From NCBI RefSeq assembly GCF_025698545.1, contig NC_068575.1:46137980-46201979 (forward strand): a stretch of DNA of 64,000 bases, read 5' to 3'. The DNA comes from Gossypium raimondii (lineage: Eukaryota > Streptophyta > Magnoliopsida > Malvales > Malvaceae). This document shows positions 487-51,672 of this stretch, piece by piece. Under the pieces are notes generated by a model, which was not told the origin of the DNA, did no database searches, and saw only the letters and a program-made list of their open reading frames with translations. The translations under genes were made by a program, and so were the position numbers. How positions within the stretch are numbered: the stretch's first letter is position 1; every line of letters begins with the position of its first letter.

Positions 487-1509
487 ATGGATACGAAAAA
501 GTTGTAGGCTCTTTGACGCTAAGTAGTCTAGCAATATTCTTGCAGCAGAAGTGTGCGGAAGACAAGCAGGAGGTGCTCTATGTCCAAATGGACTGTGTTG
601 CAGTCAATTTGGGATGTGTGGCAGCACGTCTGACTACTGCAGAACTAGCTGCCAGAGCCAGTGTAGTGGCAATGATATTGGCAGCATTATCACTCAACAC
701 CTCATTAATAATATGCTTAAATATCTAAATTATTCACGTTGTCCTGGAAATGGTTTCTACACTTATAGTGCTTTCATTATCGCTGCTTGATCTTTAACGG
801 ATTTGGCACAACCGGAGATCTTACAACCAGAAAGAGGGAACTCGCAGCTTTCTTAGCTCAAACCTCTCATGAAACAACAGGAGGATGGCCAAGTGCACCA
901 GATGGCCCATATGCATAGGGATATTGCTTTATAAGGCAACAAAACAACCACCAAGCATATTGTCTTCCTGGTGTCTAGCCGTGTCCTCGTGGAAGATTGT
1001 ATTATGGACGAGGACCCTTCCAATTAGCTTAGTAAGTTTCTCAGTCGCTTGACTAATGAAGTACTAGTTCATGATGTTGTTAACTGACTCAACACAACTT
1101 TCACAATTTAATTTCCTCAGCAACTTCATCATGGGCCAGCTAGAAGAGACATTGGAGTAGACCTAATAAATAATTCAGACCTCGTAGCCACCAACCCGAC
1201 TATATCTTTCAAGACGGCCATTTGGTTTTGGATGACCCCGTAAGGAAACAAACCATCAAGCCATAACGTAATTGTTGGGCAATGGACACCGTCTGCTGCA
1301 GAAAGGGATGCAGGTTGGCTCCCTGGCTATGGAGTCATCAGTAACATAATCAATGGTGAGCTAGAGTGCGGTCATGGTCCTGATGACAGAGTGGCGGACA
1401 GGATTGGTTTCTATCGAAGGTACTGTGACATATTAGGTGTAAGCTACAGGAGCAACTTGGATTGCTATAACCAAAGGCTTCATACAAGCGGACGATCCCA
1501 ACATAGATA
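487..1509 (+). pseudogene. class I chitinase (hevein + GH19), unit A, decayed
   Basis: This was a pathogenesis-related class I endochitinase that cleaves chitin. From 546 the reading is a chitin-binding hevein domain ([20 protein letters not shown]), followed by the GH19 domain with the catalytic-region motif [16 protein letters not shown] near 835-890. After an intron at about 1030-1121 come the [13 protein letters not shown]-type block, the FKTAIWFWM block and the C-terminal NLDCYNQR end near 1450-1485. The ATG at 487 starts a signal-peptide-like MDTKKL, but a TAG and a frameshift follow at once. Further stops interrupt the GH19 domain (784-790, 915, 980). The last coding bases run into a site homologous to the splice donor of units B and C, but here GT has become AT at 1507-1508, so the junction to the receptor exon at 1722 is lost. 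Confidence 0.85.
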
Positions 1510-1721
1510 ATAAATGCATGTCAATTTCAACATAAAGTCTTATACGAACCGACGATCTCAAGGTAGTGGTGATTGTTGATGTCACCACGATAGGTGACAT
1601 TAGCAATCAACCCTTTCTTATATCTCTTCTCTGAAAATTTTTGAAAAAGAAATTGGATTCTATTTCTTTCTACCTCTTCTTCTGTTTTGCTTAATCTTGC
1701 ATTTCTTGTTTCACCACCCAG

Positions 1722-2085
1722 TCCTAGTCAATTGTACGAGAAGTGTCGTGATGCAGTGTTCAAATGTGGGAATATCTCCATTGGATATCCTTTCTCCGGA
1801 GGTGATCGAGAACCAGAATGTGAACATCCTAATTTGGAGCTTCGCTGTGACGATTTTACTAATACTACTAAGATTGAAATTGTTGGTATTAAGTATAAGG
1901 TATTGGACATTCATCATGAAAGTCAGATTCTAAGAATTGCGAGGGAGGACTTCATCAACAATGGCTCTTGTCGTCCTCAAATTCCAATTCAAGATTCGAT
2001 CCTAAATTCTGAGTCATTTGTTCCCAGTTCTCAGAATACCAATCTTACTCTGTTATATGATTGCCAATCTTCATCGAGTCTTGGA
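1722..2085 (+). pseudogene. GUB_WAK ectodomain exon fragment, unit A
   Basis: The GUB_WAK_bind domain of an LRK10L-2 receptor kinase (galacturonan-binding type extracellular module) is recognisable from [20 protein letters not shown] onward. The reading is open but stops matching the sister copies at about 2085, after the SSSLG residues. There the domain is cut and joined to unrelated DNA. The preceding pyrimidine-rich stretch ending in CAG (1721) is homologous to the 3' splice sites of units B and C. No ATG precedes it in frame, so it is an internal exon remnant. WAK_assoc, transmembrane and kinase parts are absent. Confidence 0.8.
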
Positions 2086-2392
2086 AAAATGCAGAGAAAT
2101 TTGGAGTGGGGTTTTCCTTCTTTTTCCTTTTATCTTTTTTATGTGACAGAAAAAAGGCAGAAGCTTTATGTTCTTAAATATATGGAGTCAAGCTATTGAT
2201 GATTACTGAGGCCTGCTCAAAGACATGACTGTTTTCTTAGTCAACTGAAAAAGAAAACTAAAAAAAGGGGGAGATGAACAGTTTTTTAATTAAGTTTTAG
2301 GGTTTAAAATTTTTAATTAATTAAATTTATTTAATTAAAAATCTATCATCATTCTATTAGGAAATTCAAGTTGACACTTAAAATCTAGTTGG
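2086..2392. other. unassigned sequence between truncated unit A and MITE remnant
   Basis: From the break in unit A the sequence becomes pyrimidine-rich and then AT-rich. An open frame runs on to 2199 but has no recognisable domain. I see nothing else here. Confidence 0.4.
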
Positions 2393-3554: not shown

Positions 3555-4198
3555 ATGAGTGAACGTCTTAGTGATGTTATTTACTATGATGGTGAGATTT
3601 GCCACACCGAGAACGGTGTTATTTTTTTATCGGAGAATACAATGCGACCGGTTTTTAACCAGAACATAGATTTGACAGAACTTCGTAAAAGATTAGGCGT
3701 AAAATTTTTGGAACAACGCCAATGAAAGTTCTGTTTATTATGTATCGATTTTGTTCTTCTGTTGATCCTGTGACATATGACTCGTTCGACATAAAAGGTG
3801 CTCGTAGCTTGGAGGCAATGGTGTAGACTCATCTTGCTAGTGGAGCACCTTATATTGAGTTATATGTACAATTTACATCGCCAAATGATGTACTTGCGAC
3901 TGGTGTTCGAGAAGTATACACGACCCCTGACCGACACTCGGTTAGCGGGTTACAAAACACGGAACAGCCCGTGTTTAGTAGCGGTGTGGAATGCACATCC
4001 CCTGCAAGACACTCTATTGGTGGATGGGACATGTACGTCGATGGCTCGATGTTTGATGCTAGAAATATGTACTGGGAAACAGCATCAAGTTCTAGTGGTT
4101 GGCAATCTACATCCAATTGGAGACATTATGAAATGCCCAAAAGAAGGGATGATGTACTCCCTACGACGTCCACCAGTGAGGGGATATCTGAGAAATAG
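3555..4198 (+). pseudogene. MULE transposase N-terminal fragment
   Basis: From the ATG at 3555 (MSERLSDVIYYDGEI) the product resembles the N-terminal part of plant MuDR-type transposases. After a stop at about 3723 and one or more frame changes, the frame at 3971-4198 reads a Ser/Thr-rich stretch containing GGWDMYVDGSMFD. The SWIM zinc finger and DDE core that should follow are absent; the DNA after 4260 is AT-rich. I recognise this from the style of such proteins in plant MULEs. The assignment is moderate. Confidence 0.5.
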
Positions 4199-7504: not shown

Positions 7505-8441
7505 ATGGATACGAAAAAGTTGTAGGCTCTTTGACGCTAAGTAGTCTAGCAGTATTCTTGTAGCAGAAGTGTGCAGAACTGGCTGCCAGAGCCAGTGTAG
7601 TGGCAATGATATTGGCAGCATTATCACACAACACCTCTTTAGTAATATGCTTAAATATCTAAATGATTCACGTTGTCCTGGCAATGGTTTCTACACTTAT
7701 AGTGCTTTTATTACTGCTTCTCGATCTTTTAACAGATTTGGCACAACCGGAGATCTTACGACCAGAAAGAGGGAACTCGCAGCTTTCTTAGCTCAAACCT
7801 CTATGAAACAAAAAGAGGATGGCCAAGTGCACCAGATGGCCTATATGCATGGGGATATTGCTTTATAAGGGAACAAAACAACCTCCAAGCATATTGTTTT
7901 CCTAGTGTCTGGCTGTGTCCTCGTGGAAGATTGTATTATGGATGAGGACCCTTCCAATTGGCTCAGTAAGTTTCGCAGTCGCTCGACTAATGAAGTACTA
8001 GTTCATGATGTTGTTGACTGACTCAACACAACTTTCACAATTTAATTTCCTCAACAACTTCAACTATGGGCCAGCTGGAAGAGACATTAGAGTAGACCTA
8101 ATAAATAATCCAGACCTCGTAGCCACCAACCCGACTATATCCTTCAAGACGACCATTTAGTTTTGGATGATCCCGCAAGGAAACAAACCATCAAGCCATA
8201 ATGTAATTGTCGGGCAATGGACACTGTCTGCTGCAGAAAGGGATGCAGGTTGGCTCCCTGGCTATGGAGTCATCAGTAACATAATCAATGGTGAGCTAAA
8301 GTGCGGTCATGGTTTTGATGACAGAGTGGCGGATAGGATTGGTTTCTATCGGAGGTACTGTGACATATTAGGTGTAAGCTACAGGAGCAACTTGGATTGT
8401 TATAACCAAAGGCCTCATACAAGCGGACGATCCCAACGTAG
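7505..8441 (+). pseudogene. class I chitinase (hevein + GH19), unit B, decayed, spliced to receptor exon
   Basis: This is the sister of the chitinase at 487. It shares the same early lesions (MDTKKL then TAG), so those predate the duplication. An 84-bp in-frame deletion removed most of the hevein domain: the bases matching 557-640 of unit A are absent after 7574. The GH19 part follows ([30 protein letters not shown]). The His-Glu-Thr catalytic motif seen in unit A is damaged here (SMKQKEDG). After an intron of about 7968-8053 comes the second GH19 half, ending [21 protein letters not shown] interrupts FKTTI-FWM at 8158. The reading ends AGG TAA (8440-8445), and the same bases form a splice donor AG|GTAATA at 8441/8442. 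Its phase (2) fits the GUB_WAK exon starting at 8657. Confidence 0.85.
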
Positions 8442-8656
8442 GTAATAAATGCATGTCAATTTCAACATAAAGTCTTATACGAACCGATGATCTCAAGGTA
8501 GTGGTGATTGTTGATGTCACCACAATAAGTGACATTAGCAATCAACCCTTTCTTATATCTCTTCTCTGAAAATTTTTGAAAAAGAAATTGGATTCTATTT
8601 CTTTCTGCCTCTTCTTCTGTTTTGCTTAATCTTGCGGTTCTTGTTTCACAACCCAG
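8442..8656 (+). other. intron joining chitinase to GUB_WAK exon (unit B)
   Basis: GT-AG intron of 215 bp. The donor is AG|GTAATA and contains the chitinase stop codon. The acceptor is CACAACCCAG|TCC after a pyrimidine-rich tract that reads as a former signal peptide ([10 protein letters not shown] in one frame). Both sides are phase 2, giving a new AGT Ser codon. The intron is homologous along its length to the one at 19937-20142. Confidence 0.7.
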
Positions 8657-9385
8657 TCCTAGTCAACTGTACGAGAAGTGTCGTGATGTAGTGTTCAAAT
8701 GTAGGAATATCTCCAATAGATATCCTTTCTCCGGAGGTGATCGAGAACCAGAATGCGGACATCCTAATTTAGAGCTTCGCTGTGACGATTTTACTAATAC
8801 TACTAAGATTGAAATTGTTGGTATTAAGTATAAGGTGTTGGACATTCATCATGAAAGTCGAATTCTAATAATTGCGAGGGAGGACTTCATCAATAATGGC
8901 TCTTATCGTCCTCAAATACCAATTCAAGATTCGATCCTAAATTCTGAGCTGTTTGTTCCCGGTCCTCGGAATACCAATCTGACTCTGTTATATGATTGCC
9001 AATCTTCATCGAGTCTTAGAATCTTTCCTTGCAATTCTTCAAATAACAACAATGTTTCCATAACTACAGATAATATCCGTGGAGATGGATGTTCAGCTAA
9101 TGCTAGAGTTCCTGTTCTTCAATCTTGTTGGGGAAGATTTCGAAATAAAACCTTGGATTTGGAAGAAGCACTGGAAACAAGATTCGAGGTGCAATGGGAA
9201 GAGGATATGGAAGCCTGCTGGAAGTGCAATGCTTCCGGTGGAGGCTGTGGTTTTAACGATTCAAACTATCAAACAGTCTGCTACTGCCCGTCAAGATTTG
9301 AGAGTTCATCAGATCCTAACGAATGCCATCAATCCCATCTCCCACCATCTTCAGCATATACCAAAAAACAACAATAATACCAAAG
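8657..9385 (+). pseudogene. GUB_WAK + WAK_assoc ectodomain exon, unit B
   Basis: This encodes the extracellular part of an LRK10L-2 receptor kinase. The GUB_WAK_bind domain starts LYEKCRDVVFKCRNISNRYP and the WAK_assoc C-terminal Cys module contains CWKCNASGGGCGFN and CYCPSRFE. The open frame runs to a TAA at 9373-9375, caused by one extra base in an A-rich stretch close to the exon end. In unit C the same place reads through to the donor AG|GTATGT, here at 9385/9386. The Cys of the canonical KCGN is changed to KCRN. It has no ATG in frame, which fits an internal exon downstream of the chitinase exon. Confidence 0.8.
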
Positions 9386-9414
9386 GTATGTATATACTTT
9401 CCATTTATGCAATT

Positions 9415-10866
9415 AAACAATTTTGTTTATCTAATATGAAATATTACATAATTTTTATATTATGTTAATTTTTACAAAATTAAATGAATTACTTATTATA
9501 AAATCTTATAAAAACTAATTATTATATATAATAGTTGAAATGTTATAAAATCTCAAAAATAAAAAAAGTTTTAATTAAAAAGAATATATAATAAATAATT
9601 AAACATATAGTTTGAAACTAAATAATAATAGCACATACAATGCGCATTTAAATTATAATGAAAAAATTATATTAAATAATAGGCAAAACAAAATTTAAAC
9701 ATGTAAATATATCAAATTAACAATATTAAATTTAATATAACTATTTATTATATTGGTGTTATTAATGTTGAGTTAATGCCAAGTGACATGAACTTAATAA
9801 GAGATTTAAATAGTAGTATATATATATTAAAAATAATTATAAAATTAAAAATATAGATATTTTAGTAAACTTTTTTGGACGGGATAAAACTTGCTCTCAA
9901 ACCTGCCCTTATTAGGTGAGGGTGAAACTTGATGGATTCGAGTTATTTTACCATGTAAAATTATTGACTAATCAATTATTCAATCAATGTATACTAATAT
10001 AAAAAATTAATTGAGTTAATTAATAATTTTACAATAATAAAAATAATGGTTGAAAGCATTGAATTAATTGTTTTTTCAATAGGTTTTTTTAGAAGAGTGG
10101 AACCAATAAGAGTTTATTAATAATATCATTATTTGGTATATTTATGGTGATTTTTTTAACTATACAAACGAAATTAAGAAATTGTCTTATGTCCTTAATT
10201 AGTATTTAAAAAATTAAAAACTAGATGAGCTGTACATGGTGGGTTTTTTATCCTACTTGTATAAAAAATTTCTTCACCAACGGGTACACAAGGGATGAAG
10301 ACGAGAGGGAATAAGAAGGAGATCAAGTGGTGCAATGGAGATCGATTCACCTATAAAGGTCAAGAGCTGGAACAAGAACAATGGGACAAGTTGAACAAAT
10401 AGATGAATATAGAGAATAACCTTAGGATGCTAAAAGGTCAATCTTTTATTCGTCGTTTCAGAGGGTATTTATAGGAAATGTCCCCTTGTTCGAAGGTATG
10501 ATGTGTCAGAATATAGATTTGATCCCATTAAATGCATAATAGACAATCATAGACATGTATCATGAGACTCTATCAACATAAGATAGTTAAGCCTAAATAG
10601 ACTTCTTATTAGAATAGTATTCACATTTAAATTTGTGTAGATGACTCTTTAAGGTAGAATGGGTGATCACATTCAGAAATAATGGATGAGAGGTTTGTTG
10701 AAATGTTATCTTAAAGAAAGCCAACGCAGAGTCAACGATGCCTTCAGTGCTGACATGTGTCTGTTCGACGGAGGGATATGACACTATTATTAAAAGCTCC
10801 TTCCTATTTCAACTATGTCCACCAATTGCAGTACCAGATGATTTGGTTTTATTATAATTTGACAAA
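9415..10866. mobile_element. about 1.45 kb insert in the intron of unit B, class unknown
   Basis: The corresponding intron in unit C is only 186 bp (20868-21053). In unit B its two halves (9386-9414 and 10867-11040) are separated by this insert. Similar short sequences AATTAAACA and AATTCAACA flank it. The interior is AT-rich; read on the minus strand, the sequence near 10460-10490 has a TATAAATA box as in LTR promoters. I cannot name the family. Confidence 0.5.
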
Positions 10867-11040
10867 TTCAACATGGCATTTATTTATTTTCTGTTTGTAA
10901 TATTCTTTCTTTCTTAAAGAAAAAGGTAGTAATATTAATTTGGTGTGACTGTTTTAACCCAAAAAAAAAATAAAATTGTTGAAATTATTTGAATGATTGA
11001 AATTGTAAGTAACTAATGTGTGGAATATTGTATTGAATAG

Positions 11041-11082
11041 GTGGGTCCAAATCCAAGTTGAAGCTGGCTCCAATTTTAACGG
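11041..11082 (+). pseudogene. juxtamembrane mini-exon, unit B
   Basis: A 42-bp exon (14 codons, phase 1 on both sides) lies between AATAG and the donor GG|GTATGA. It reads [14 protein letters not shown] and leads into the transmembrane segment. It matches the 42-bp exon at 38701-38742 in gene D, which supports this splice model. Confidence 0.6.
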
Positions 11083-11594
11083 GTATGAAACATTTTTGTG
11101 GTTTGAATTAATTATATACCTTCTACTATAATGTCTTATTGGGTAATAATATGTGGTTTTATTGCTACTATAGTTAATTTTTAAAGTTGGAATCAAAATC
11201 AACATGTCTAATCCAAAGCAATATTTTCATGTACTCACTTTTAATTAAGATATACTCCAATTAAACTTTTAGGATTCAAGTCGGTTTTAATTAATATAAC
11301 TTAATTGGTTTTAAACAAATATAATCAGGGCAAATCCAGCAACTCATTATTGAGTGCCAAAATAAAAGTTTAAAAGAGACTTAAATTAAATATCTCACAA
11401 ATAAAACGGGTTAAAATAAATATTTTACCTTTTAGCTAAGGCGGGAATGCCAAAATGCTTTTCTTTTAAATTAACAATGATACTTTACGTGTTACAGCAA
11501 ACACAAGTTTAAGGGTTTCCTTCAAGATTTTTCTTTAATTTTATTCATTACGTTCTTGTACTTAATTAAATATTACATATGTGTTAATAAACAG

Positions 11595-11741
11595 GATTAA
11601 CAGTTGCTGGAATTGTATTGGTTTTTTCCGTTTGCTTCATTGTCCTAAGGTTCAAAGGAAAATCATTATCGAAGATAAACGACGATGCTAGGATTGAGGC
11701 ATTCATCACAAAGTTTGGTCTTTTTGCTCCAAAGCGATACT
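11595..11741 (+). pseudogene. transmembrane and kinase start, unit B
   Basis: After the acceptor ACAG the frame reads LTVAGIVLVFSVCFIVLRF (transmembrane helix), a basic stop-transfer segment and the juxtamembrane DARIEAFITKFG...PKRY. This is identical in arrangement to unit C at 21868. The kinase is broken off at 11741, directly after the codon for the Tyr of KRYSYEE, where the LTR-like insert begins. Confidence 0.8.
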
Positions 11742-13456
11742 TGCAGCAACCAAAAATTTAGCACGGGCGCTAGTTAAGGCGATTATTGAAAATTTATAAA
11801 CAAACAGAGTCTTGATTTTACTTTTTTTTATTTAAAAAGAGAGTCACCGTCGATCTTTTTTCTAGGTGTGATCGGACACCTATTAAATTCTCTTTTTAAA
11901 AGATAAATTTTTTAAAATTTTCTTTAAAAGAGTCGATTTTAGGTCCGCGTTAAAAAATCCAAAGAAAATTAGGGTTCGGGAGTCAGTTACGCGCGAGGAA
12001 GGTATTAGCACCCTCGCGACGCCCAAAATTGATATCTCGTTAAGCGCGCACTGTCTTAATTTTCAAAAATACGAATTCAATTTAATATTTAATCATGATC
12101 CGATTGAAACACGAGAATTTTAATAAATTACATATTATTATATATTCATTTAAATATAATTTGATAATTTACGAAAAATAGACATTTTGTTTTAAAACAC
12201 GAGAATTTTTTGAATTTTTTTTATTTTAAAAAGACCGTATCGTATTTAACACGAACCGATGATATTCACCCAACATAGCAATGAAATCAACGACTTGGTG
12301 TCAAATCGATTCGTTGCCTTATTTATTTAAATTATTTAAATTAAAAATAAAATAAAATTAAAAATATAAATACAAAAAAATGCGTAAAAAAATCCCAATA
12401 ATATTCAAAACGAAACATCATCAAAATACATGAATTAAATTAAAAGTGGGTAAAAATTAAATTACCGAAAAGCCCGAAAATACAAGCTTGATCGAAAGGG
12501 CTACACGACTTGAGCTTCACTTTTTCCTTTTTTTTCTCTTTCTTCTTTTTTCTGCTGGGTTGGGCGCTTGTTGGGCTGCTGCTTGCTGCTGGGCTAGCCT
12601 GGTCCTGCTGCAGCGGGCCGCTGGCTGTTGATGTGGCTTGCTGGGAGGTGCTAGGCTGTTGGGTTGCTGGCCTGCTAGGCTGTTGGGCTACTACTTTTGG
12701 GCCTGCTGTTTTTTTTCTTTTTCTTTTTTTTTTGCTGGGCCTGACTGGGTTGGCCTGTTGCTGGGTGTTGATGGGTGGTCGGGTCAGGTTGCCGGTCGGT
12801 TAACGGGTCAGGTTGGGATGACCCGACTGTTAAAATTTTTTATTCTTTTTCCTTTTCTTTTCTTCCTTTTTCCTTTTTCCTTTTTTCTTTCCTTTCTTTT
12901 TCTTCTTCTTCTTCTTCTTCTTTTTCTTCTTCTTCAAAAGCCTAGCCCTTTCGTCACGCCGCTGCTTGCGCCGTTTCCTCCATCGCCGTCTCCTTCGTCG
13001 CTCGTCCCCTTTCTTCTTTTCCTTCCTTTTTTTTACTGCCAAAACTCTTTTTTTTGAAACTTTTCTCTTCTTCTTTTTTTTATTCGTGGGGGTTTCTGAT
13101 TTTGGGGGAAAAACCCCCTTTTATTGTTGATTTCTTGCTTCTTTTTGCAGGTAGCAGGTGGGGAGGGCAGAGGGAGGCCATACCTTAGGCCGGCTGCCGA
13201 AAATCGCGGAGGGTAGGTGCGCAAATCGCACTGGTGGCTGCCAGAAGGACCAAATTGAAAATACAACAAAAATTTTAGGGCCAAAGTGTAATTTCCAAAA
13301 AGTTCAAGGGTTAAAATGAAATTTTAAGAAAGTTTAAAGGTTAAAATGTACTTTTGAAAAGTTAAGGGGTCCAAATATAATTTTAGGCAAGTTCAGAGGT
13401 TAAAATGTAATTTTGAAAAATAAAAAATTTGACCCGAACAAAATTCAGTGATTACA
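11742..13456. mobile_element. solo-LTR-like insert replacing the kinase core of unit B
   Basis: The 1715-bp segment begins TGCAGCAACC and ends GTGATTACA, so it has TG...CA ends. It contains the block GCGCGAGGAAGGTATTAGCACCC that I associate with plant Ty3/gypsy LTRs, a long pyrimidine-rich promoter-like stretch (12520-13080), and a series of degenerate AAGGTTAAAATGTAATTT units near the end (13280-13430). No internal gag or pol is seen. The flanks ATACT and ATGTT do not match, so there is no target duplication. About 0.6 kb of kinase is missing at this point. Insertion plus deletion is therefore likely. Open frames in the pyrimidine stretch are low-complexity and not genes. Confidence 0.65.
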
Positions 13457-13704
13457 ATGTTGAAGCGTCCCGAACTAGTCAAATATATTTTCCGTCATTG
13501 ATTTATAAGCATCTTGACCAGTCTACAAACTTGAATATTAATGAAGAAATAACAGAAGAGGAAGCAGAAATAATAGGGAAATTGATTGCAGTGAGCCTTT
13601 GGTGCATTCAAACCAAACCATTGGATCGACCGTCAATGTGTAGAGTATTAGACATGTTGCAAGGAAGCCTTCAATCATTGGAACTCTCGCCACGACCTAC
13701 TTAA
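13457..13704 (+). pseudogene. kinase C-terminal end, unit B
   Basis: This continues the LRK10L-2 kinase after the insert: VEASRTSQIYFPSLIYKHLD, then [20 protein letters not shown] and ELSPRPT before the stop. It matches the tail of unit C. Subdomains I to about IX are missing. The 3' region after the stop stays homologous to unit C until about 13807. Confidence 0.85.
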
Positions 13705-14024
13705 ACATTTTTGTGGAAATTATTGTGTTTATTATTATTTTTAATTTATTAAACATATAGTGTTAGTGAATTTAAGAGAGTTATAAATATGGGAAAATGC
13801 AAATAAAGGCTATTAGTATACCTTAAGATACTGTTAGTTGGTTAGGTTGTTGTCAATTTAGTTGCGTGTTTGTTAGTGAGCAGTTAGTCATTGAGGTTTT
13901 ATATATTGGCTTCTTTGGAAGTTCAGAAAATAGATTGGAAAATATAGAAACATTCCTTTAAATTTGTTCTTTGTTTTTGTTTCTTTACCTTATTCTTTTA
14001 TGGTATCATTCGCTGGTTGCTCCT

Positions 14025-14789
14025 ATGGCCATGGCTTCCGCTGAATCTGGAGATCCGATTCCTACTGTGTTTACTGGTGATCGAGTCACCAACACATTTC
14101 CTCGACATGAGATCATTAAACTTGACGATGGTACTTATTTGCAGTGGCACAAACAAGTCAAGTTAATTGCTGATGGATATGGTCTTATTGGTTTTTTAGG
14201 TGGTACGTTGCCTTTGTCGTCGCAGTTTGTTCAGTTGTCTGATGGTTCTCGTGCTCCAAATCCTGCCGCTTTGGTGTTCACGCAGCAAGATCGCCTTCTT
14301 ACTTCTTGGCTTTTGTCCACGATAAGCTCATTGCATCAATCCTCTTTTACTGATGCTTCCAAAACGTGTGATGTATGGGATACAGCAACTCGTTTGTTTG
14401 TTGCCGATACTGGAGTGAAGCAGTCCCGGATTCATCATGAGTTACATTCCTTAAAGAAGGGAAATCTTTCTGTTAAGGTGTATGTTACTCGTATTAAAGA
14501 GCTATGTGCTATTTTGGAAACTTATGGTTCTCGTATCACGGAAGAGGAGAAGATCGAAATGTTGTTTGCAGGTTTGCCGTCAGAGTTTGAAGCCGTTATT
14601 TTTTCAGCCCGGCTGTCAACTGGCGTCCTCTTCTTTCAGCACTTAGTTAATGCACTTGTGGATTGTGAGGCTCATCAGGCGCGACTTTTTCAGGATGTTG
14701 TTTTGGTTGCGAATGTTGTTGAAAATTCATCATTCGATGAGGGGGATGTTCGCTGTGGTGGTCGTGGGTTCAATCGTGGCCGTGGTTAG
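14025..14789 (+). pseudogene. copia gag region
   Basis: The ATG at 14025 (MAMASAESGDPIPTV) opens a copia gag with the usual block LDDGTYLQWHKQVKLIADGY, followed by the LHSLKKGNLSVKVYVTRIKEL and EEKIEMLFAGLPSEF motifs. A stop after the Gly/Arg-rich stretch (14789) cuts it before the CCHC knuckle; the downstream part (14790-15470) continues in other frames. Confidence 0.8.
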
Positions 14790-15499
14790 AGTTTTTGATC
14801 TCGCGTTCAATGCTAAATCTGTAGTCGGTTTGGTCATGTTATGCAAAGATGTTATTATCGTTACCATCGTGAATCGAATGACTAGTCGTGGTATCTACGT
14901 GTTCTTTTTAAGGGTTTCTATCATCGATGCTTGGCGGTTATGGCGAAGGGCAGGCTCTTCGTCAACAGAAAAGTTCGAGGGTGAGTTTTGGTCAATATTA
15001 CTATGCCGGTCAAAGTAATAGTCTAAATTTTGACCAAAATTTTTGTGGTTATGCTCCACGTAGGCCGGTTGTGTTTGATGGTCAACATGGGGATCGAAAT
15101 TTCGGTCGTTCTTAGGCTGGTGAATTTAGGCCTAGGTTTAATGATGCTGGACCATTTGATGTTGGGTATAGGCAAAATGAATTTCCTGGGCCAAGTGTTG
15201 ATGTTGGATATAGGCAAAATGGGTTTTCTGAGCCGACTATTAGTTTTGCTAATGTTGAATCCAGTTTGTATAGACCGGTTGGGTATGGCCCGAGTATACG
15301 TCCTACTGGCCCAGTTGGTGGTGGTCCAATTTTGAGGTCAACTAAACCACGTGCTCGAGTTTATGATGGGTTCAATCCGTGTATTGGTCTTCCTCGGTTA
15401 GGTGATTTGCATGCCTCTAATTTTTCTGACTCTTCTATTCATACTATTTAACCTGGGTCCAATGCTGGTAAGGATGGTTCATATGTTCCTGGTCATATT

Positions 15500-17731
15500 G
15501 GTACCACTTCTTGGTATCTTGATTCTGGTACGAGTAATCATGTCTGTCGCGATGTTTCTGCCCTACATGATGTCACGTCGTATTTAGGTATGTCATCTCT
15601 TTTAATGGGTGATGGTTCTCCTGCACATATTTCCTCAATCGGTAATGCTATTATCCCAACACAGTCTAAGTCGTTACGCCTATCTAATGTTCTATGTATG
15701 CCAAGTATAAGGAAAAATCTTTTATCAGTTTCACAATTTACTTACGATAATGATGTTTTCTTTGAGTTTCACTCTACACATTATGTTTTAAAGGATGCCG
15801 TGACCCGAGAGATGTTGCTGACGGGTCGCATTCGTGATGGACTATATCAATTTTCTGTACCAGATGTGTCGTCTTCATCTAATGGTGTTTTGTTTGCTGC
15901 TCATTCTCAAATCCAACCTAAAGTTCCAGATTGTCCAGTTTTTGCTTTATGGCATAATCTGCTAAGCTACTCGTCTGCTTCTGTGGTTAAGACTGTTCTT
16001 AATAAATGTAATATTGTTTCAAATAAATATAGTTTTGATGGTTTTTGTACTGCGTGTCAGCAAGGCAGGTCACATAAGTTACCTTTTTCAGTTTCAACCA
16101 CTAACTGTCTTCCGTTTGAATTGATTATTTCTGATATTTGGGGACCTGGGTCTGTTGCATATGATGATAAGCGGTATTACGTTTCGTTTATTGACATGGG
16201 TTCTAGATTCACCTGGATTTATCTTTTACGACAGAAATTTTAAGTTGTAGAATGTTTTCTTCAGTTTCATCAGTTCGTCAAGACTCAATTTGGTAGATTT
16301 ATTAGGCAATTTCAGAGCAATTTCAGTGGTGAATATCAGAGTCTTATGTCTATTTTACAGTCTCAAGGTATTGTTCATCGGTTAACTTGTCCGTATACTT
16401 CTGAACAAAATGGTGTCACCGAATGTAAACATAGACACATTGTTGAAATAGGTATTACGTTGTTAGCTCAAGCACATATGCCTATGGACTACTAAGGATA
16501 TGCATTTAGCTGTGCCGTACATCTTATAAATCGACTTCTTACTATTTTTCTTCAAGAGTGTTCTCCGTTTCAAGCTTTTTATAGAAGTGATCCTACTTAT
16601 GATTATCTTCGGGTGTTTTGTTGTTGTTGTTTCCCTTATCTACGTCTGTTTGTTAGTCGTAAATTAGAATTTTGTTCTCAGCCGTCTACGTTTTTGGGTT
16701 CCAGTTCTCGTCACAAAGGTTATCAGTGTCTTTTACCAGAAGGTAAGGTGATTGTTTCTCGGTATGTGGTGTTTGATGAGCTGCGGTTTTTATTTTCTGA
16801 AGCTAGCTATGGAAAGTCTGAATCTTCTTCTCTTTAGACTAGTTCAACGGTTGTTCCTCTTGTATGGCCTAATATGTCGTCTCATCCGTTTCAAGATGTT
16901 GAGTTGATGTCTCCATCCACTACTTCTCAAGCAGGTGTGGCTAATGATGATTTGGTTCAGTCACCAGATGTTTCAAGTAGTAATGTTCAGTCTGACTCTG
17001 CAATATCTGAAGGTGTTTCATCTTCTTCTACTAGTTCAACTAGTGCAAATCCTGTACGTAATACTCATTTAATGATTACTCGGGCTAAGGTTGGTGTTTT
17101 TAAGCCTAAAGCCTTAACTGCTGAAATTCTAGAACCTTCTACGATTGAGGAAGCTATGACTACTACTAAATGGAAAGCCGCAGTACAAGATGAGTATGAT
17201 GCTCTTATTCGTAATTCTACGTGAGAGCTGGTTTCAGCTTCATCTGATCGTAAAATAATTGGATGTAAGTGGTTGTTCAAAACTAAAAGGAATTATAATA
17301 GTACTATTGCCCGTTGGAAGGCTCGGTTAGTTACGAAAGGTTGTTTTAAGGTTCTGGAATGTGATTTTAAGGAAACGTTTAGTCCTGTGGTTAAACCAGC
17401 TACTATCAGAATTGTTTTGTCTATTGCTGTTTCCAGGGGCTGGTTGCTTCGGCAAGTGGATGTTAATAATGCTTTTCTAAATAGTGATCTTGATTCTGAA
17501 GTTTTTATGCAACAACCTCCGGGTTATGTTCATTATGACACCAATGGTAAATCTTTGGTTTGTCATCTAAAGAAAGCGTTGTATGGACTTCGTCAGGCTC
17601 CCCGTGCCTGGTTTGAGAAGCTAAAGACATTTCTTGTCTCTCTGGGATTTGTTGTCTCGAAGTCTGATGCCTCGATTTTTTATCTAAAGAAGAAAATGAG
17701 CTTGATTGTCATGTGGATTATTTGTGCTTAA
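15500..17731 (+). pseudogene. copia pol region (protease, integrase, partial RT), broken
   Basis: The protease motif WYLDSGTSNHVC lies at about 15512. Next come LCMPSIRKNLLSVSQF and the GAG-pre-integrase block. The integrase starts near 16130 (DIWGPG) with a stop after LLRQKF at 16241-16243, and further stops at 16492-16494 and 16836. The RT begins near 17150 with EAMTTTKWKAAVQDEYDAL, has TGA in place of a Trp codon at 17222, then KARLVTKG, QVDVNNAFLNSDL and KKALYGLRQAPRAWFEKL. The frame ends at 17731 before the catalytic YVDD. Confidence 0.85.
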
Positions 17732-18852: not shown

Positions 18853-19940
18853 ATGAAATCATCAGCATCAGCATCAGCATCATCAGATCTTGCTCTTCTT
18901 TTGCTTTCCTTATCATTCACGATGCTCGAGGTTGCTGTTTCACAAAGTAATAATACCAGAGGTATGTATGCATGCACTTTCCATTTTAGAACTATTCTTT
19001 TTGGGTAATGGTAATAAAATTAAGATTAGGGTTGCGTGCATCTGCCGGTTTAATAACTTCCTCTTGGGTTGGGTGGTTAACACAAGTATGTTCTGTTTCA
19101 AGGCCTCTCTCAGTTTAACTTATAAACTCTCCTGTTTGAAACTCGGCTTGGATCCTTTTCTTGTCTTGTCCCTGTTCATTTAACTCTTTTTGTGTGTGTG
19201 TATATATGTTTTGTGTAGATTTAAATTCATTTTCCTGTTGCACAGGTGCTCGTCTATCGATGTTTACTATTGTAAATAATTGCAGCTATACAGTTTGGCC
19301 AGGGGTGATAACAGAGAGCGGAGGCTCACAGAGTTTTCCTACTACAGGTTTCAGTCTTAATCCCGGTGAATCAACATCTATTTCTATTCCAAGATCTTGG
19401 ACAGGTCGAATATGGGGTCGAACTCTTTGCACTCAAGACTCTTCTGGCAATTTCTCTTGCCTCACCGGGGACTGCGGCACATCTAGACCAGAGTGTTCTG
19501 GTAGGTTGCCCAGGCCCCTGGCAACCCTTGCAGAGTTTACTTTCGATAGTTCTGTGGGATCCGATTTCTATGATGTTAGCCTTGTTGATGGATTCAATCT
19601 ACCATTGATGATATCCCCACATGGTGGAACTGGAGGTGACTGTAACTCATCTGGATGTGTTGCGGATTTGAATGATGACTGTCCTTCGGAGCTTAAGGTT
19701 GTCAATGGGAGTGAGACAGTTGCATGTAAGAGTGCTTGCTCTGCTCTTGGGGAGCCCCAGTATTGCTGCACCGGAGATTATGGTTCTCAAGCTACGTGCC
19801 AGCCCACTTCTTACTCACAATTCTTCAAGACTGCGTGTCCTACAGCGTATAGCTACGCCTATGATGATGCAACCAGTATGTTCACTTGTGTTGACGCTGA
19901 TTATGATATTACTTTCTGCCCTACCCCTTCCACCAGGTAA
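18853..19940 (+). CDS. thaumatin-like protein (PR-5), short product if intron 2 is retained
   Basis: Exon 18853-18961 gives a signal peptide with a (SA)-repeat start ([11 protein letters not shown]) and hydrophobic [10 protein letters not shown]. Exon 19246-19940 gives the thaumatin domain, ending FCPTPSTR and TAA. By eye there are sixteen Cys, and the acidic-cleft residues of PR-5 proteins (Arg before TLC, Glu in AEFTF, Asp residues in [10 protein letters not shown]) are kept. The product would be a secreted protein of about 266 aa of glucan-binding, antifungal type. The stop codon lies within the splice donor AG|GTAACA, so this short form and the receptor form exclude each other. It is the only complete PR domain in the cluster. 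Confidence 0.8.
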
Positions 19941-22926
19941 CAAATGCATGCAAATTTCAATATAGAGAACGGGCGATCCTAAGGCAATGGTGTCCGTTGA
20001 TGTCACCGGTCCGCGGTAGCATTGGCAATCAACCGTTTCTTCCATCTCTGCTTTGAATTTTTGGAAAAGAAAATGATTTCTCTTTCTTTCTGCCTCTACT
20101 TCTGTTTTGCTTATTCTTGGGTTTCCTGTTTTCACTACCCAGTCCCAATCAACTGTACGAGAAGTGCCGCAATGCAGTGTTTAAATGTGGGAATATCTCC
20201 ATTGGATATCCTTTCTCCGGAGGTGATCGAGATCCAGAATGCGGACATCCTGGTTTGGAGCTTCACTGTGACGTTTTTACTAATACTACTAAGATTGAAA
20301 TTGTTGGTGTAAAGTATGAAGTGTTGGACATCCATCATGAAAGTCGAATTCTAAGGATTGCTAGGGAGGACTTCATCAAGAATGGCTCTTGTCATCCTCA
20401 AATTCCAATTCAAGATTCGATCCTGAATTCTGAGCCATTCGTTCTAGGTTCTGGAAATACCAATCTTACTCTGTCCTACGACTGCCAATCTTCATCGAGT
20501 CTTGGAATCTTCCCTTGCAATTCTTCAAATTACAACAATGTTTCCATAACTACAGATAACATTCGTCCAGATGGATGTTCAGCTAATGTTAGAGTCCCGA
20601 TTCTTCAATCTTCCTGGGAAAGACTTCGAAACGATTCCCTGGATTTGGAAGAAGCATTGGGAACAGGATTCGAGGTGCAATGGAAGGAAGATACGGAAGC
20701 CTGCCGGAAGTGCAATGCTTCTGGTGGAGCCTGCGGTTTTGACAAGTCCAACAATCAAACATTCTGCTACTGCCCATCAGGATTTGAGAGTTCACCGGAT
20801 TCCAACGAATGCCATGGAGCCCTTCTCCCACCATCCCCAGCAAATACTGGAAACAATAATACCAGAGGTATGTATGTACTTTCCATTTATACAATTCAAC
20901 ATGTTATTTATTTTCTGTTTTAAGATAGTAATATTAATTGGATGTGAATGCTTAACTTAAAAAAAAGAAAGAAAAGGAGTTGAAATTATTTAAATAATTG
21001 AAATCGTAAAGCAACTAATTGATTGCTTTGTGTTGTATATTGGTATTTAATAGGTGGGTCCAAATCCAAGTTGAAGCTGACTCAATAATCATAGGTATGA
21101 AACTGTCTGTTGGGTAATAATGTGGTTTGAATTAACTATATATCTTCTAAGCACACACTAAATACATCACAACTACTATAATTGTAGTGTTGAAATAGCT
21201 TTTAATTAAGTTGATTTTAAATAAATGTATATACTCTTTCTATATCTTTTAATGCTTTTCTTTTAAATTAATAATCATACTTTTTTTTTTTAACTTTTAT
21301 GATTTTTTTGGTAAACTATTAAAATAGTCACTTTTTTTGTTTCAGGTCATATTTTAATCACTTATGTTTGAAAAATTACATTTTAGTCACTTGCATTATC
21401 GTGTTATAACATTTTAGTCACTAAGTGTTAATTGTAGTTAACAGTGTAACGGTAAGCTGATGTGGCACGTTAAATCATCATTTCAAATGAAAATTTTAGG
21501 TTAAAATTTAGCTCTAAACGAAAAAATATAGGGGCCAGTTGTATAATTTAATCTACAATTTTTGTTTGAAATGATGATTTAACATGCCACGTCAACTTAT
21601 TGTTACACCGTTAACGACAATTAACGGCTTAGTGACTAAAATGTTACAACATGGTAAGGTAAGTAATGAAAATGTAATATTTCAAACATAAGTGATTAAA
21701 ATGTAACCCGAGATAAACAAAAGTGACTATTTTGATGATTTACCCTTTCTTTTTAAGTTTATTGTTCGATTTTATTCACTGCTTTCTTTTTATTTTAACC
21801 AATGTTTTCACTTTAATTGAATCTTATCTATTGAGCTAGCAAAAATTGATTAATAATTCATAAACAGGATCTGTTGTTGGAGTTGTATCGATTTCTACTA
21901 TATGCTTCATTGTCTTATGGTTCAAAGGAAAATTATTATCAAATTATCTCTGCCAAGGAAAGATGAACGACGATGCTAGGATTGAGGAATTCATCACAAA
22001 GTTTGGTCCTTTTGCTCCAAAGCGATACTCTTACGAAGAAATCAAGAAAATGACAAATAAATTCAATGATAAATTAGGTCAAGGAGGTTTCGGAAGTGTA
22101 TATAAAGGAAAATTATCCAACGGTCATCTAGTGGCGGTTAAATTCCTAAGAGAAATGAAGGGAAATGGAGAGGATTTTATGAATGAAGTAGCTAGCATTA
22201 GCAGAACTTCTCATGTTAATATAGTGACTTTACTTGGTTTTTGCTTTGAAAGATCGAAGAGAGCTTTGATCTATGAATTCATGCCCAAAGGATCATTGGA
22301 CAAGTTCATTTATGGACAAGGATCGGATAATCAAAGTCGTCAATTGGAATGGGTAACTTTATATGACATTGCACTCGGCATCGCTAGAGGACTTGAGTAC
22401 TTACATCAAGGTTGTAACACAAGGATCTTGCACTTTGACATAAAGCCTCACAATATCCTTTTGGATGAGAATTTTTGTCCCAAGATCTCCGATTTTGGCT
22501 TGTCGAAATTATGCGAAAGAAAGGAGAGTGTTGTATCAATGACAGGTGCTAGAGGAACAGCGGGTTATATTGCTCCAGAAGTATTTTTTTCGAAATCTGG
22601 GAGGAGTTTCTCACAAATCCGATGTCTATAGTTACGGAATGATGGTTCTTGAAATGGTCGGAGGAAGAAAAAATATCAATGTCGAAGTGTCCCAAACTAG
22701 TGAAACATATTTCCCCTCATGGATTTATAAGCATCTTGATCAATCTATGAACCTGAATATTAATGAAGAAATAACAGAAGAGGAAGCAGAAATAACAAGG
22801 AAATTGATTGCAGTGAGCCTTTGGTGCATTCAAACCAATCCATTAGATCGACCATCAATGACTAGAGTATTAGAAATGTTGCAAGGAAGCCTTCAATCAT
22901 TGGAACTTCCCCCACGGCCTACTTAA
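18853..22926 (+). CDS. thaumatin / GUB_WAK / LRK10L-2 receptor-like kinase fusion gene (unit C, with two small lesions)
   Basis: Predicted exons: 18853-18961 (signal peptide), 19246-19936 (thaumatin), 20143-20867 (GUB_WAK and WAK_assoc), 21054-21094 (mini-exon) and 21868-22926 (transmembrane and kinase). Phases at the first three junctions are 1, 2 and 1, and all fit. With the mini-exon skipped the kinase is in frame. The product would be a plasma-membrane receptor kinase with a PR-5 module outside and a Ser/Thr kinase inside, of about 860 aa. Kinase motifs: [23 protein letters not shown] (non-RD), DFGLSK, GYIAPE. Lesions: the mini-exon is 41 nt instead of 42 and contains TAA, and an extra T in the run at 22585-22591 shifts the kinase so that it would end at 22631; the true frame resumes at [15 protein letters not shown]5K-type kinases are known relatives, but the extra GUB_WAK module and the splice-over-stop arrangement are what I infer here. 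Confidence 0.65.
18961..19246 (+). other. intron 1 of unit C
   Basis: The donor is ACCAGAG|GTATGTATG and the acceptor GTTGCACAG|GTGC (intron 18962-19245, phase 1). The last 13 bases of exon 1 and the first nine of the intron are the same as at the GUB_WAK exon end (20855-20876). This suggests that exon 1 arose from a receptor gene by loss of its GUB part. Confidence 0.75.
19937..20142 (+). other. intron 2 of unit C: stop codon inside the splice donor
   Basis: 206-bp GT-AG intron. The donor CACCAG|GTAACA holds the thaumatin TAA (19938-19940). The acceptor CACTACCCAG|TCCC follows a pyrimidine-rich tract that, read in the GUB frame, is [19 protein letters not shown], a signal-peptide-like stretch without an ATG. 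Splicing joins AG and T to a Ser codon in phase 2. Confidence 0.75.
20143..20867 (+). other. GUB_WAK + WAK_assoc exon of unit C
   Basis: Intact ectodomain exon: [37 protein letters not shown], several N-x-S/T sites, then the WAK_assoc motifs [13 protein letters not shown] and FCYCPSGFE. There is no stop before the donor AG|GTATGT at 20867/20868. Without splicing the frame ends at 20923. Confidence 0.85.
21054..21094 (+). other. juxtamembrane mini-exon of unit C, 41 nt with in-frame stop
   Basis: Homologous to the 42-nt mini-exons at 11041 and 38701, between TTTAATAG and ATAG|GTATGA. One base is missing and the reading ends CTGACTCAA TAA. Skipping it keeps the phase (1 to 1). Confidence 0.6.
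21310..21745. mobile_element. fold-back MITE in the last intron of unit C
   Basis: A 436-bp palindromic element. It starts GGTAAACTATTAAAATAGTC and ends with GACTATTTTGATGATTTACC. Inside are paired blocks around ATTTTAATCACTTATGTTTG and a central pair GATGTGGCACGTT / AACATGCCACGTC. It has no coding capacity. Related copies are at 2393-2555 and 51285-51672. Confidence 0.85.
22585..22591 (+). other. frameshift site: extra T in homopolymer of the unit C kinase
   Basis: GAAGTA is followed by seven T, then CGAAATCTGGG. With six T the reading continues as [18 protein letters not shown], as in gene D (VVCRNFGGVSYKSD). Either a true mutation or a homopolymer sequencing error. Confidence 0.85.
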
Positions 22927-23454: not shown

Positions 23455-23782
23455 GTGTCTCACCCTTCATAAATCCGATGTCTATAGTTACGGAATGATG
23501 GTTCTTGAAATGGTCGGAGGAAGAAAAAATATCAATGTTGAAGTGTCCCAAACTAGTGAAACATATTTCCCCTCATGGATTTATAAGCATCTTGATCAAT
23601 CTATGAACCTGAATATTAATGAAGAAAGAACAAAAGAGGAAGAAGAAATAACAAAGAAATTGATTGCAGTGAGCCTTTGGTGCATTCAAACCAATCCATT
23701 AGATCGACCGCCAATGGCTAAAGTAATGGAAATGTTGCAAGGGAGTCCTCAATTATTAGAACTGCCGCCACGACAGACTTAA
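23455..23782 (+). pseudogene. duplicated kinase C-terminal half (LRK10L-2)
   Basis: From [20 protein letters not shown] to LPPRQT this repeats the last third of the unit C kinase. It is nearly identical in the first 170 bases and diverged later (NEERTKEEEEI). The open frame upstream (23189-23454) is not kinase and I do not recognise it. No kinase N-lobe, transmembrane part or ectodomain precedes it, so it is a partial duplicate. The product cannot be a kinase. Confidence 0.85.
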
Positions 23783-51284: not shown

Positions 51285-51672
51285 AAATTATAAATTAATC
51301 ACTATGTATAGTTTAAAATACATTTTGGTCACTAAATTTGAAAAAAATTATGATAGGATCACTAATGTTATCAATATGTTACATTTTGGTTATTGAGTTA
51401 TTAATTACCGTTAATGATGTAACGATAATCGATATGACATGTTATATCATCATTTCGCATTTAAAATTTTAGGTCAAATTATGCAATTTATCTCTATACT
51501 TTTTATTTGAAAAAAATAAAATTAAAAATAATTAAATTTGCTCTAAAAAAAGTTTAGGGATTAGTTGTTTAGTTTGGTGTAATTTTTTGTCTAAAATGAT
51601 GATATAACGTGCCATATTAGCTTGCTGCTACAATTTTAATGGTAGTGACTCAATAACCAAAATGTATATACG
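51285..51672. mobile_element. decayed fold-back MITE
   Basis: Arms such as ACATTTTGGTTATTGAGTTA and ACTCAATAACCAAAATGTA pair with each other, around a centre with ATATCATCATTTCG / AAATGATGATATAACG. Same family as the element at 21310. Confidence 0.6.

Follow-up and report, generated by a model that had tools for sequence, protein, structure and literature searches.

A probable, damaged chimeric receptor-kinase gene with a thaumatin exon in an LRK10-like cluster of Gossypium raimondii

PR5K-type receptor kinases, or thaumatin-like protein kinases (TLP-kinases), are described in the available excerpts of two articles as comprising a signal peptide, a thaumatin domain, a membrane helix and a Ser/Thr kinase. 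In poplar they are about 650 amino acids (aa) long and their genes (TLP-Ks) form a tandem cluster among other kinases; as far as these excerpts state, Arabidopsis and poplar were the only dicots in which Petre et al. 2011 found TLP-kinases (PMC3048497, PMC6822995). Excerpts of other articles show that proteins with the domain PF13947 are named 'rust resistance kinase Lr10' (PMC9978785), that 14 conserved Cys residues are given for the LRK10-like ectodomain type (PMC7313013), and that LRK10-like and thaumatin receptor kinases are classed as separate types (PMC7313013, PMC10573068). In the available part of a report on cotton GbRLK, PR5K and LRK10 are discussed as relatives and the subclass is left open (PMC4597213). 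In this study, we analysed a window of 64,000 nucleotides (nt) of Gossypium raimondii DNA (C11:46137980-46201979, C11 being the contig that bears it; gene coordinates below are window positions), in which a thaumatin (PR-5) exon is followed by an LRK10-like GUB_WAK exon and a protein kinase exon. A first-pass annotation had proposed that the stop codon of the thaumatin reading lies inside a splice donor and that the locus switches between a soluble defence protein and a receptor by splicing one intron. We found that the locus is probably a real but damaged chimeric receptor-kinase gene, that the overlap of stop and donor is ordinary, and that the splicing switch is unsupported.

Exon borders and the origin of the phase-2 intron

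The exons of the gene are listed in Table 1. The thaumatin reading closes with ...FCPTPSTR*, and its last codon and stop, AGG TAA (19935-19940), overlap the donor motif AG|GTAA; the first-pass annotation had this overlap and its coordinates right. It was also correct that the acceptor at 20142/20143 opens the GUB_WAK frame, that joining 19936 to 20143 yields the Ser codon AG+T with phase 2 on both sides, and that the flanking introns are phase 1, since exon 1 and the GUB exon each end in that phase. The thaumatin profile PF00314 is covered in full (positions 1-209 of 209) and, like PF13947 (GUB_WAK_bind, 59.1 bits) and PF14380 (WAK_assoc, 70.8 bits), was matched above the Pfam cut-off. Alignments to 3zs3 and 2ahn showed matching R, E and D residues, at positions that may form the acidic cleft (REDDD). 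No match to a solved structure was obtained for the GUB exon at E up to 1. Between thaumatin and kinase, a 19-residue stretch with a mean hydropathy of 2.19 is predicted, from hydropathy only, to form a transmembrane helix. The window kinase is closest to other kinases of the cluster, in agreement with an LRK10-like receptor kinase. Taken together, the locus, which lies in a tandem cluster of LRK10-like genes, is probably a chimeric PR5K/LRK10-like receptor-kinase gene, or what is left of such a gene after a recent break. This reading is supported by thaumatin exon borders shared with other genes, by the signal-peptide match of the intron, by the constraint on the GUB exon, and by the splice phase and intact kinase of a sister locus, L044.

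In the region from about 19973 to 20500, six AGs that follow a C or T were considered as acceptors. Of these, only 20142 keeps the whole GUB exon, and it also has the best pyrimidine count (12/15). The alternative at 20364 (8/15 pyrimidines) is in frame and open but loses the first third of the GUB domain. The GUB exon contains no Met in its 241 codons, and an upstream exon is therefore needed. This bears on another explanation, in which two adjacent genes are present: a thaumatin gene without its third exon, ending at the TAA at 19938, and an LRK10-like kinase gene downstream. The thaumatin frame does close at this stop, a signal-peptide-like stretch directly precedes the GUB domain, and no surviving exon for a glycosylphosphatidylinositol (GPI) tail was found near the window thaumatin in the sequences compared. 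However, between its upstream stop (before 20057) and the end of the 241-codon exon, the GUB frame offers no ATG; the one at 20073 belongs to another frame. The two supposed genes would also be only about 200 nt apart. The ATG is also lost in two related copies upstream (copies 1 and 2, described below), and the supposed stop is the splice-donor motif of many thaumatin genes in the genome. The lack of an in-frame ATG makes an independent GUB-kinase gene unlikely, and we regard the two-gene explanation as quite improbable.

The 3' part of the intron resembles coding sequence. The opening of the GUB frame begins at 20057 and includes a signal-peptide-like reading of 21 residues. As shown by blastn, matches to the signal-peptide stretches of L042, L043 and L045 start at 20117, 20115 and 20089, respectively; further upstream, the alignment to LRK10-like signal-peptide stretches is weak. 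In L042 and L043, which belong to the same cluster and which we take to be LRK10-like (Lr10-type) on the basis of GUB_WAK plus kinase, the signal peptide leads straight into the GUB domain, whereas in the window it is not contiguous with the GUB domain and the signal-peptide-like stretch falls within the predicted intron. The acceptor tract thus looks like a decayed remnant of the sequence that coded for the signal peptide of an LRK10-like receptor kinase. Exon 1, together with the 5' flank of the gene, is also similar to the first exon of L042 (68% over 187 nt), and its end (last codons and donor) resembles the end of the GUB exon in the dispersed copies L039 and L040 (86% over 42 nt). The same AATAATACCAGAG|GTATGTATG junction occurs at 18949-18973, the end of exon 1, and at 20855-20879, the end of the GUB exon. 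Because both exon ends share this junction, the comparison suggests that exon 1 is a GUB exon minus its core.

A fusion route can be proposed from these borders. The first exon of an LRK10-like gene would have been duplicated, with the outer copy reduced to a signal peptide and donor; the signal peptide of the inner copy would have become intron, and a thaumatin exon would have been inserted between the two copies, in an order of events that we infer. The inserted piece, a middle exon taken from a GPI-type thaumatin gene, would have brought along both of its splice borders and would have come to lie between the signal-peptide exon and the LRK10-like GUB_WAK exon. Its native phase-2 donor AG|GTAA, which elsewhere leads to a GPI-like tail, would have been re-paired with an acceptor in the old signal-peptide stretch, whose leucine and phenylalanine codons would now serve as the pyrimidine tract.

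Table 1. Positions of the probable chimeric gene, its intron and the upstream copies in the window
Feature	Position	Strand	Remarks
Exon 1	18853..18961	+	ATG at 18853; signal-peptide-like stretch (hydropathy only); ends in phase 1
Thaumatin (PR-5) exon	19246..19936	+	phase 1 to phase 2; PF00314, 272.8 bits; 16 Cys
Predicted phase-2 intron, 206 nt	19937..20142	+	donor AG|GTAACA, acceptor CCCAG|T; apparent stop TAA 19938-19940
Signal-peptide-like stretch inside the intron	20072..20142	+	GUB frame, no in-frame ATG; now pyrimidine tract and acceptor
GUB_WAK_bind and WAK_assoc exon (LRK10-like ectodomain)	20143..20867	+	14 Cys; no Met; ends in phase 1
Small juxtamembrane exon, 41 nt	21054..21094	+	in-frame TAA upon inclusion
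Transmembrane helix and protein kinase exon	21868..22926	+	two frames, split by T7 run 22584-22590
Copy 1	545..2086	+	decayed chitin-binding domain and GH19 chitinase (c. 545-1500), homologous intron 1507-1720, truncated GUB exon
Copy 2	7620..11745	+	decayed GH19 chitinase 7620-8400, homologous intron 8442-8655, GUB exon

The stop in the donor among thaumatin genes of the genome

A phase-2 donor that starts with GTAA or GTGA gives an immediate stop whenever the intron is retained. We compared the ends of thaumatin genes across the genome, in which the thaumatin search gave 63 matches, many of them partial. The comparison covered 47 thaumatin ends (8 loci and 39 short stretches, the window's own and that of L044 excluded); among the 39 short stretches, four without an end readable by pattern, one odd end and two without a stop were all kept in the count. 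In-frame AG|GTRA after FCP...R* was found at the same place in 16 of the 47 (14 with GTAA and 2 with GTGA). The stop inside the donor, presented earlier as a feature of this gene, is thus not specific to it, and its interpretation as a special device is rejected on this comparison. The central observation of the first-pass annotation arises because a phase-2 GTAA intron always reads through to TAA. The same finding also makes the intron of the window gene more credible.

The nearest relatives of the window thaumatin among the 14 thaumatin loci compared were L005 (70% identity) and L002 (68%). Their thaumatin exons have the same acceptor, ACAG|GTGCTC, and a donor CCACCAG or CCACAAG|GTAATA. These donors are followed by introns of 327 and 710 nt and then by homologous third exons that open with the AG|T Ser codon. 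The third-exon acceptors are TTTTGCAG|T and TTGTTGCAG|T, and the encoded tails, SVKSSNPMAVDISS... and SLKTSDPMAVDISA..., look like GPI-anchor signals. For the six remaining loci of L001-L008, a simple scan of the same kind revealed no convincing third exon. In a tree, the window thaumatin grouped with L044 (89/87), within a set with L005 and L002 (93/93); both forks are below the star level of the tool, and L044 forms a long branch. Judged from these alignments, AGG TAA is the last donor of the window's thaumatin clade, and the window intron is very likely a genuine, inherited intron of the ordinary kind.

These results bear directly on the proposed switch, in which retention of the intron would yield a soluble thaumatin-like protein and its removal a thaumatin-GUB_WAK receptor kinase, both from a single locus. 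Both open frames exist, and retention would end the protein right after a complete 16-Cys thaumatin domain. However, the same donor and stop stand at 16 of the 47 other thaumatin ends, and in both genes with a recognised third exon they belong to an ordinary intron. The kinase frame is broken as assembled, and the small exon has a stop. In addition, mRNAs that retain an intron upstream of further introns are expected to be degraded or to stay in the nucleus, which counts against the switch. We consider such a switch very improbable; most simply, the intron would be spliced constitutively. These results suggest, as a caution, that a stop in a phase-2 GTAA donor should not be taken for a regulatory switch.

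Damage, constraint and related copies

The fusion of thaumatin to a receptor kinase, as first proposed, holds for the thaumatin exon, which has the borders of a normal internal exon and is predicted to be spliced in frame to the GUB exon, but it does not extend to a complete kinase frame. Past the APE motif, a T7 run (22584-22590) throws the kinase out of frame. L044 has T6 at this place, and L042 and L043 stay in frame there; L053, which overlaps L042 and carries the same kinase, was left out of this comparison. Pfam accordingly matched the window kinase in two pieces (4-170 and 174-259 of 263), and the gene as assembled has no complete Ser/Thr kinase in one frame. The earlier estimate of a receptor of about 860 aa cannot be upheld, as the kinase frame is broken and the four exons on which it rested (18853-18961, 19246-19936, 20143-20867 and the kinase exon) total 2584 nt, which is not divisible by 3. 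That exon set also lacked the 41-nt exon at 21054-21094. By counts made by eye, the small exon has 42 nt in copy 2 and in the dispersed copies L039-L041 and 39 nt in L044, and it is free of stops in all of them. The in-frame TAA in the window means that the receptor reading also demands skipping of this exon. With the small exon skipped, the longest product is 762 aa and loses about the last third of the kinase; a complete kinase cannot be produced from this assembly. A partial tandem duplicate of the kinase 3' end lies at 23467..23782 on the + strand (93% identical to 22611-22926).

A sister locus, L044 (C11:46090000-46099900), carries a thaumatin exon in three frames with the same donor as the window gene. 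The front of its GUB exon is deleted, and the WAK_assoc back part lies behind a different acceptor, at 4187/4188 of L044, again in phase 2. Its kinase is intact. With this kinase as query, the two pieces of the window kinase were found at 85% and 90% identity, and the next best five matches were kinases of the C11 cluster at 75-78%. When 63 thaumatin places were compared by eye with 116 kinase places (best candidates only), no further thaumatin-kinase pair closer than about 40 kb was seen besides the window and L044; the next-nearest pair lies about 45 kb apart, on C5.

Selective constraint was examined by dN/dS (the ratio of nonsynonymous to synonymous divergence; Nei-Gojobori, rounded site counts, Fisher test). 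The GUB exons of the window and copy 2 differ at 55 of 549 nonsynonymous sites and at 38 of 156 synonymous ones (dN/dS 0.37, p 1.2e-5), and over 11 comparisons with finite dS the ratio for this exon ranged from 0.25 to 0.58. In the intron, 46 of 203 aligned sites differ between the same two copies, which is like the synonymous sites (p 0.71) and unlike the nonsynonymous ones (p 1.9e-5). The kinase gave dN/dS of 0.19 and 0.10 for its two pieces against L044, and 0.75 against the 47-codon kinase remnant of copy 2. In view of these ratios and the divergence of the intron, the GUB and kinase parts have been conserved, whereas the former signal peptide has drifted.

Several observations weigh against a working chimera. 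Both thaumatin-kinase loci seen in the genome are damaged, the window in its kinase and small exon and L044 in its thaumatin, and the fused frame may therefore never be translated now. The WAK_assoc remnant of L044 scores below the Pfam cut-off (20.6 vs 27). The thaumatin exon shows no clear constraint against L044 (dN/dS 0.72, p 0.11), and the constraint on the GUB exon could partly predate the fusion. Both lesions of the window gene are 1-nt differences and could be assembly errors. Another explanation is that the parts came together only by chance when the cluster was rearranged, and that the locus is a dead tandem relic which never worked as a fusion. The frame lesions in both loci, the decayed chitinase copies, the duplicated kinase tail and the thaumatin exon without clear constraint would all fit such a relic. 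In contrast, neither the thaumatin nor the GUB exon of the window has a break in its frame or lacks a Cys, dN/dS is 0.10-0.37 against copies at dS of about 0.3-0.4 (copies 1 and 2 for GUB, L044 for the kinase), and two loci that use different acceptors both preserve the phase match. A relic of this kind is possible but rather unlikely, and the chimeric gene, possibly broken recently, remains our preferred interpretation.

Copies 1 and 2 lie 7-18 kb upstream of the window gene and have a class I chitinase in the place of the thaumatin. Stops and frame breaks were read directly in both chitinases, although some single stops in the GH19 matches may be introns. Their homology to the window gene starts at 19935, that is, at the donor, where copy 2 keeps AGGTAA and copy 1 has AGATAA. 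Copy 2 also has an open small exon and the start of a kinase exon; the kinase is interrupted, and 13455-13810 resembles its 3' part. An exon-1 homologue was found about 3.5 kb upstream of copy 1 (L053, 74% over 514 nt), and none was found for copy 2 within the window. One might see here a receptor scaffold with an exchangeable slot for pathogenesis-related (PR) proteins, filled by PR-5 thaumatin in two copies and by PR-3 class I chitinase in two. The shared parts would be the signal-peptide exon, the phase-2 intron derived from a signal peptide, the GUB_WAK exon and the kinase. We put this forward as a doubtful possibility; if it were true, functional members in related species would be expected to exchange one antifungal protein for another as the sensor of the receptor.

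Mobile and repeated sequences were also seen at this locus and elsewhere in the genome. L039 (C11:56.77 Mb), L040 (C3:0.70 Mb) and L041 (C5:26.57 Mb) each contain a dispersed copy of the GUB exon together with the small exon and pieces of intron. These copies share a start point (window 20098), are 94-96% identical and lie within longer repeats common to all three, which looks like capture of a gene fragment by a mobile element. The intron before the kinase exon contains an inverted repeat of 437 nt (21310-21744, 80% match to its own reverse complement) that is similar to miniature inverted-repeat transposable elements, and pieces related to it lie near 2453-2558 and 51319-51639. Retrotransposon-like gag-pol frames, presumably Copia-like, occupy 13962-17731, so that their end lies about 1.1 kb before the start codon of the thaumatin gene.

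Comparison with known receptor kinases

Among the open-access literature matches listed (titles and the starts of abstracts), we found no report of thaumatin, GUB_WAK and kinase in one protein. In the available excerpts, the three are mentioned together only in domain tables or as separate genes (PMC7333395, PMC7202023); a third article listed, PMC8912425, also mentions all three. Such a protein may be present in annotation databases. Although thaumatin receptor kinases are known, an exon-level account of how a secreted defence protein became a receptor sensor was not met in the parts of the literature available to us. At this locus the fusion borders are visible: an ordinary thaumatin donor would have found a new use, and the acceptor tract would derive from codons for the signal peptide of the downstream gene. 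This would be a simple and possibly general route by which neighbouring genes for secreted proteins are fused, and it predicts what to seek elsewhere.

The gene shares features with each of the described types. As in the GPI-type thaumatin-like genes L005 and L002, the thaumatin exon has the same acceptor, a phase-2 donor and the joined Ser codon; in those genes, however, the third exon is a short GPI-like tail and not a receptor. With the LRK10-like genes L042 and L043 it shares the GUB_WAK_bind and WAK_assoc ectodomain, the 14 Cys and the kinase exon, but its signal peptide is split off and a thaumatin exon lies in between. Copies 1 and 2 may have had a chitinase-type domain before a receptor kinase, as in CHRK1, the tobacco chitinase-related receptor kinase. 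CHRK1, according to the excerpt available, has a class V chitinase-type domain (PMC10573068), whereas the chitinase of the two copies, putatively fused to the receptor part, is of class I (GH19), has decayed and, in copy 1, includes a chitin-binding domain. Finally, the first-pass description of a PR5K-like protein with an added GUB_WAK module was borne out for the module, which lies between thaumatin and kinase, but not for a kinase in a single frame. Like AtPR5K1-3 and the poplar TLP-Ks, as far as the excerpts describe them, the window gene has a complete thaumatin ectodomain and a predicted transmembrane helix. It differs from them in its frame-broken kinase and in the 241-codon module between thaumatin and helix, a GUB_WAK/WAK_assoc module that those excerpts do not mention for PR5K.

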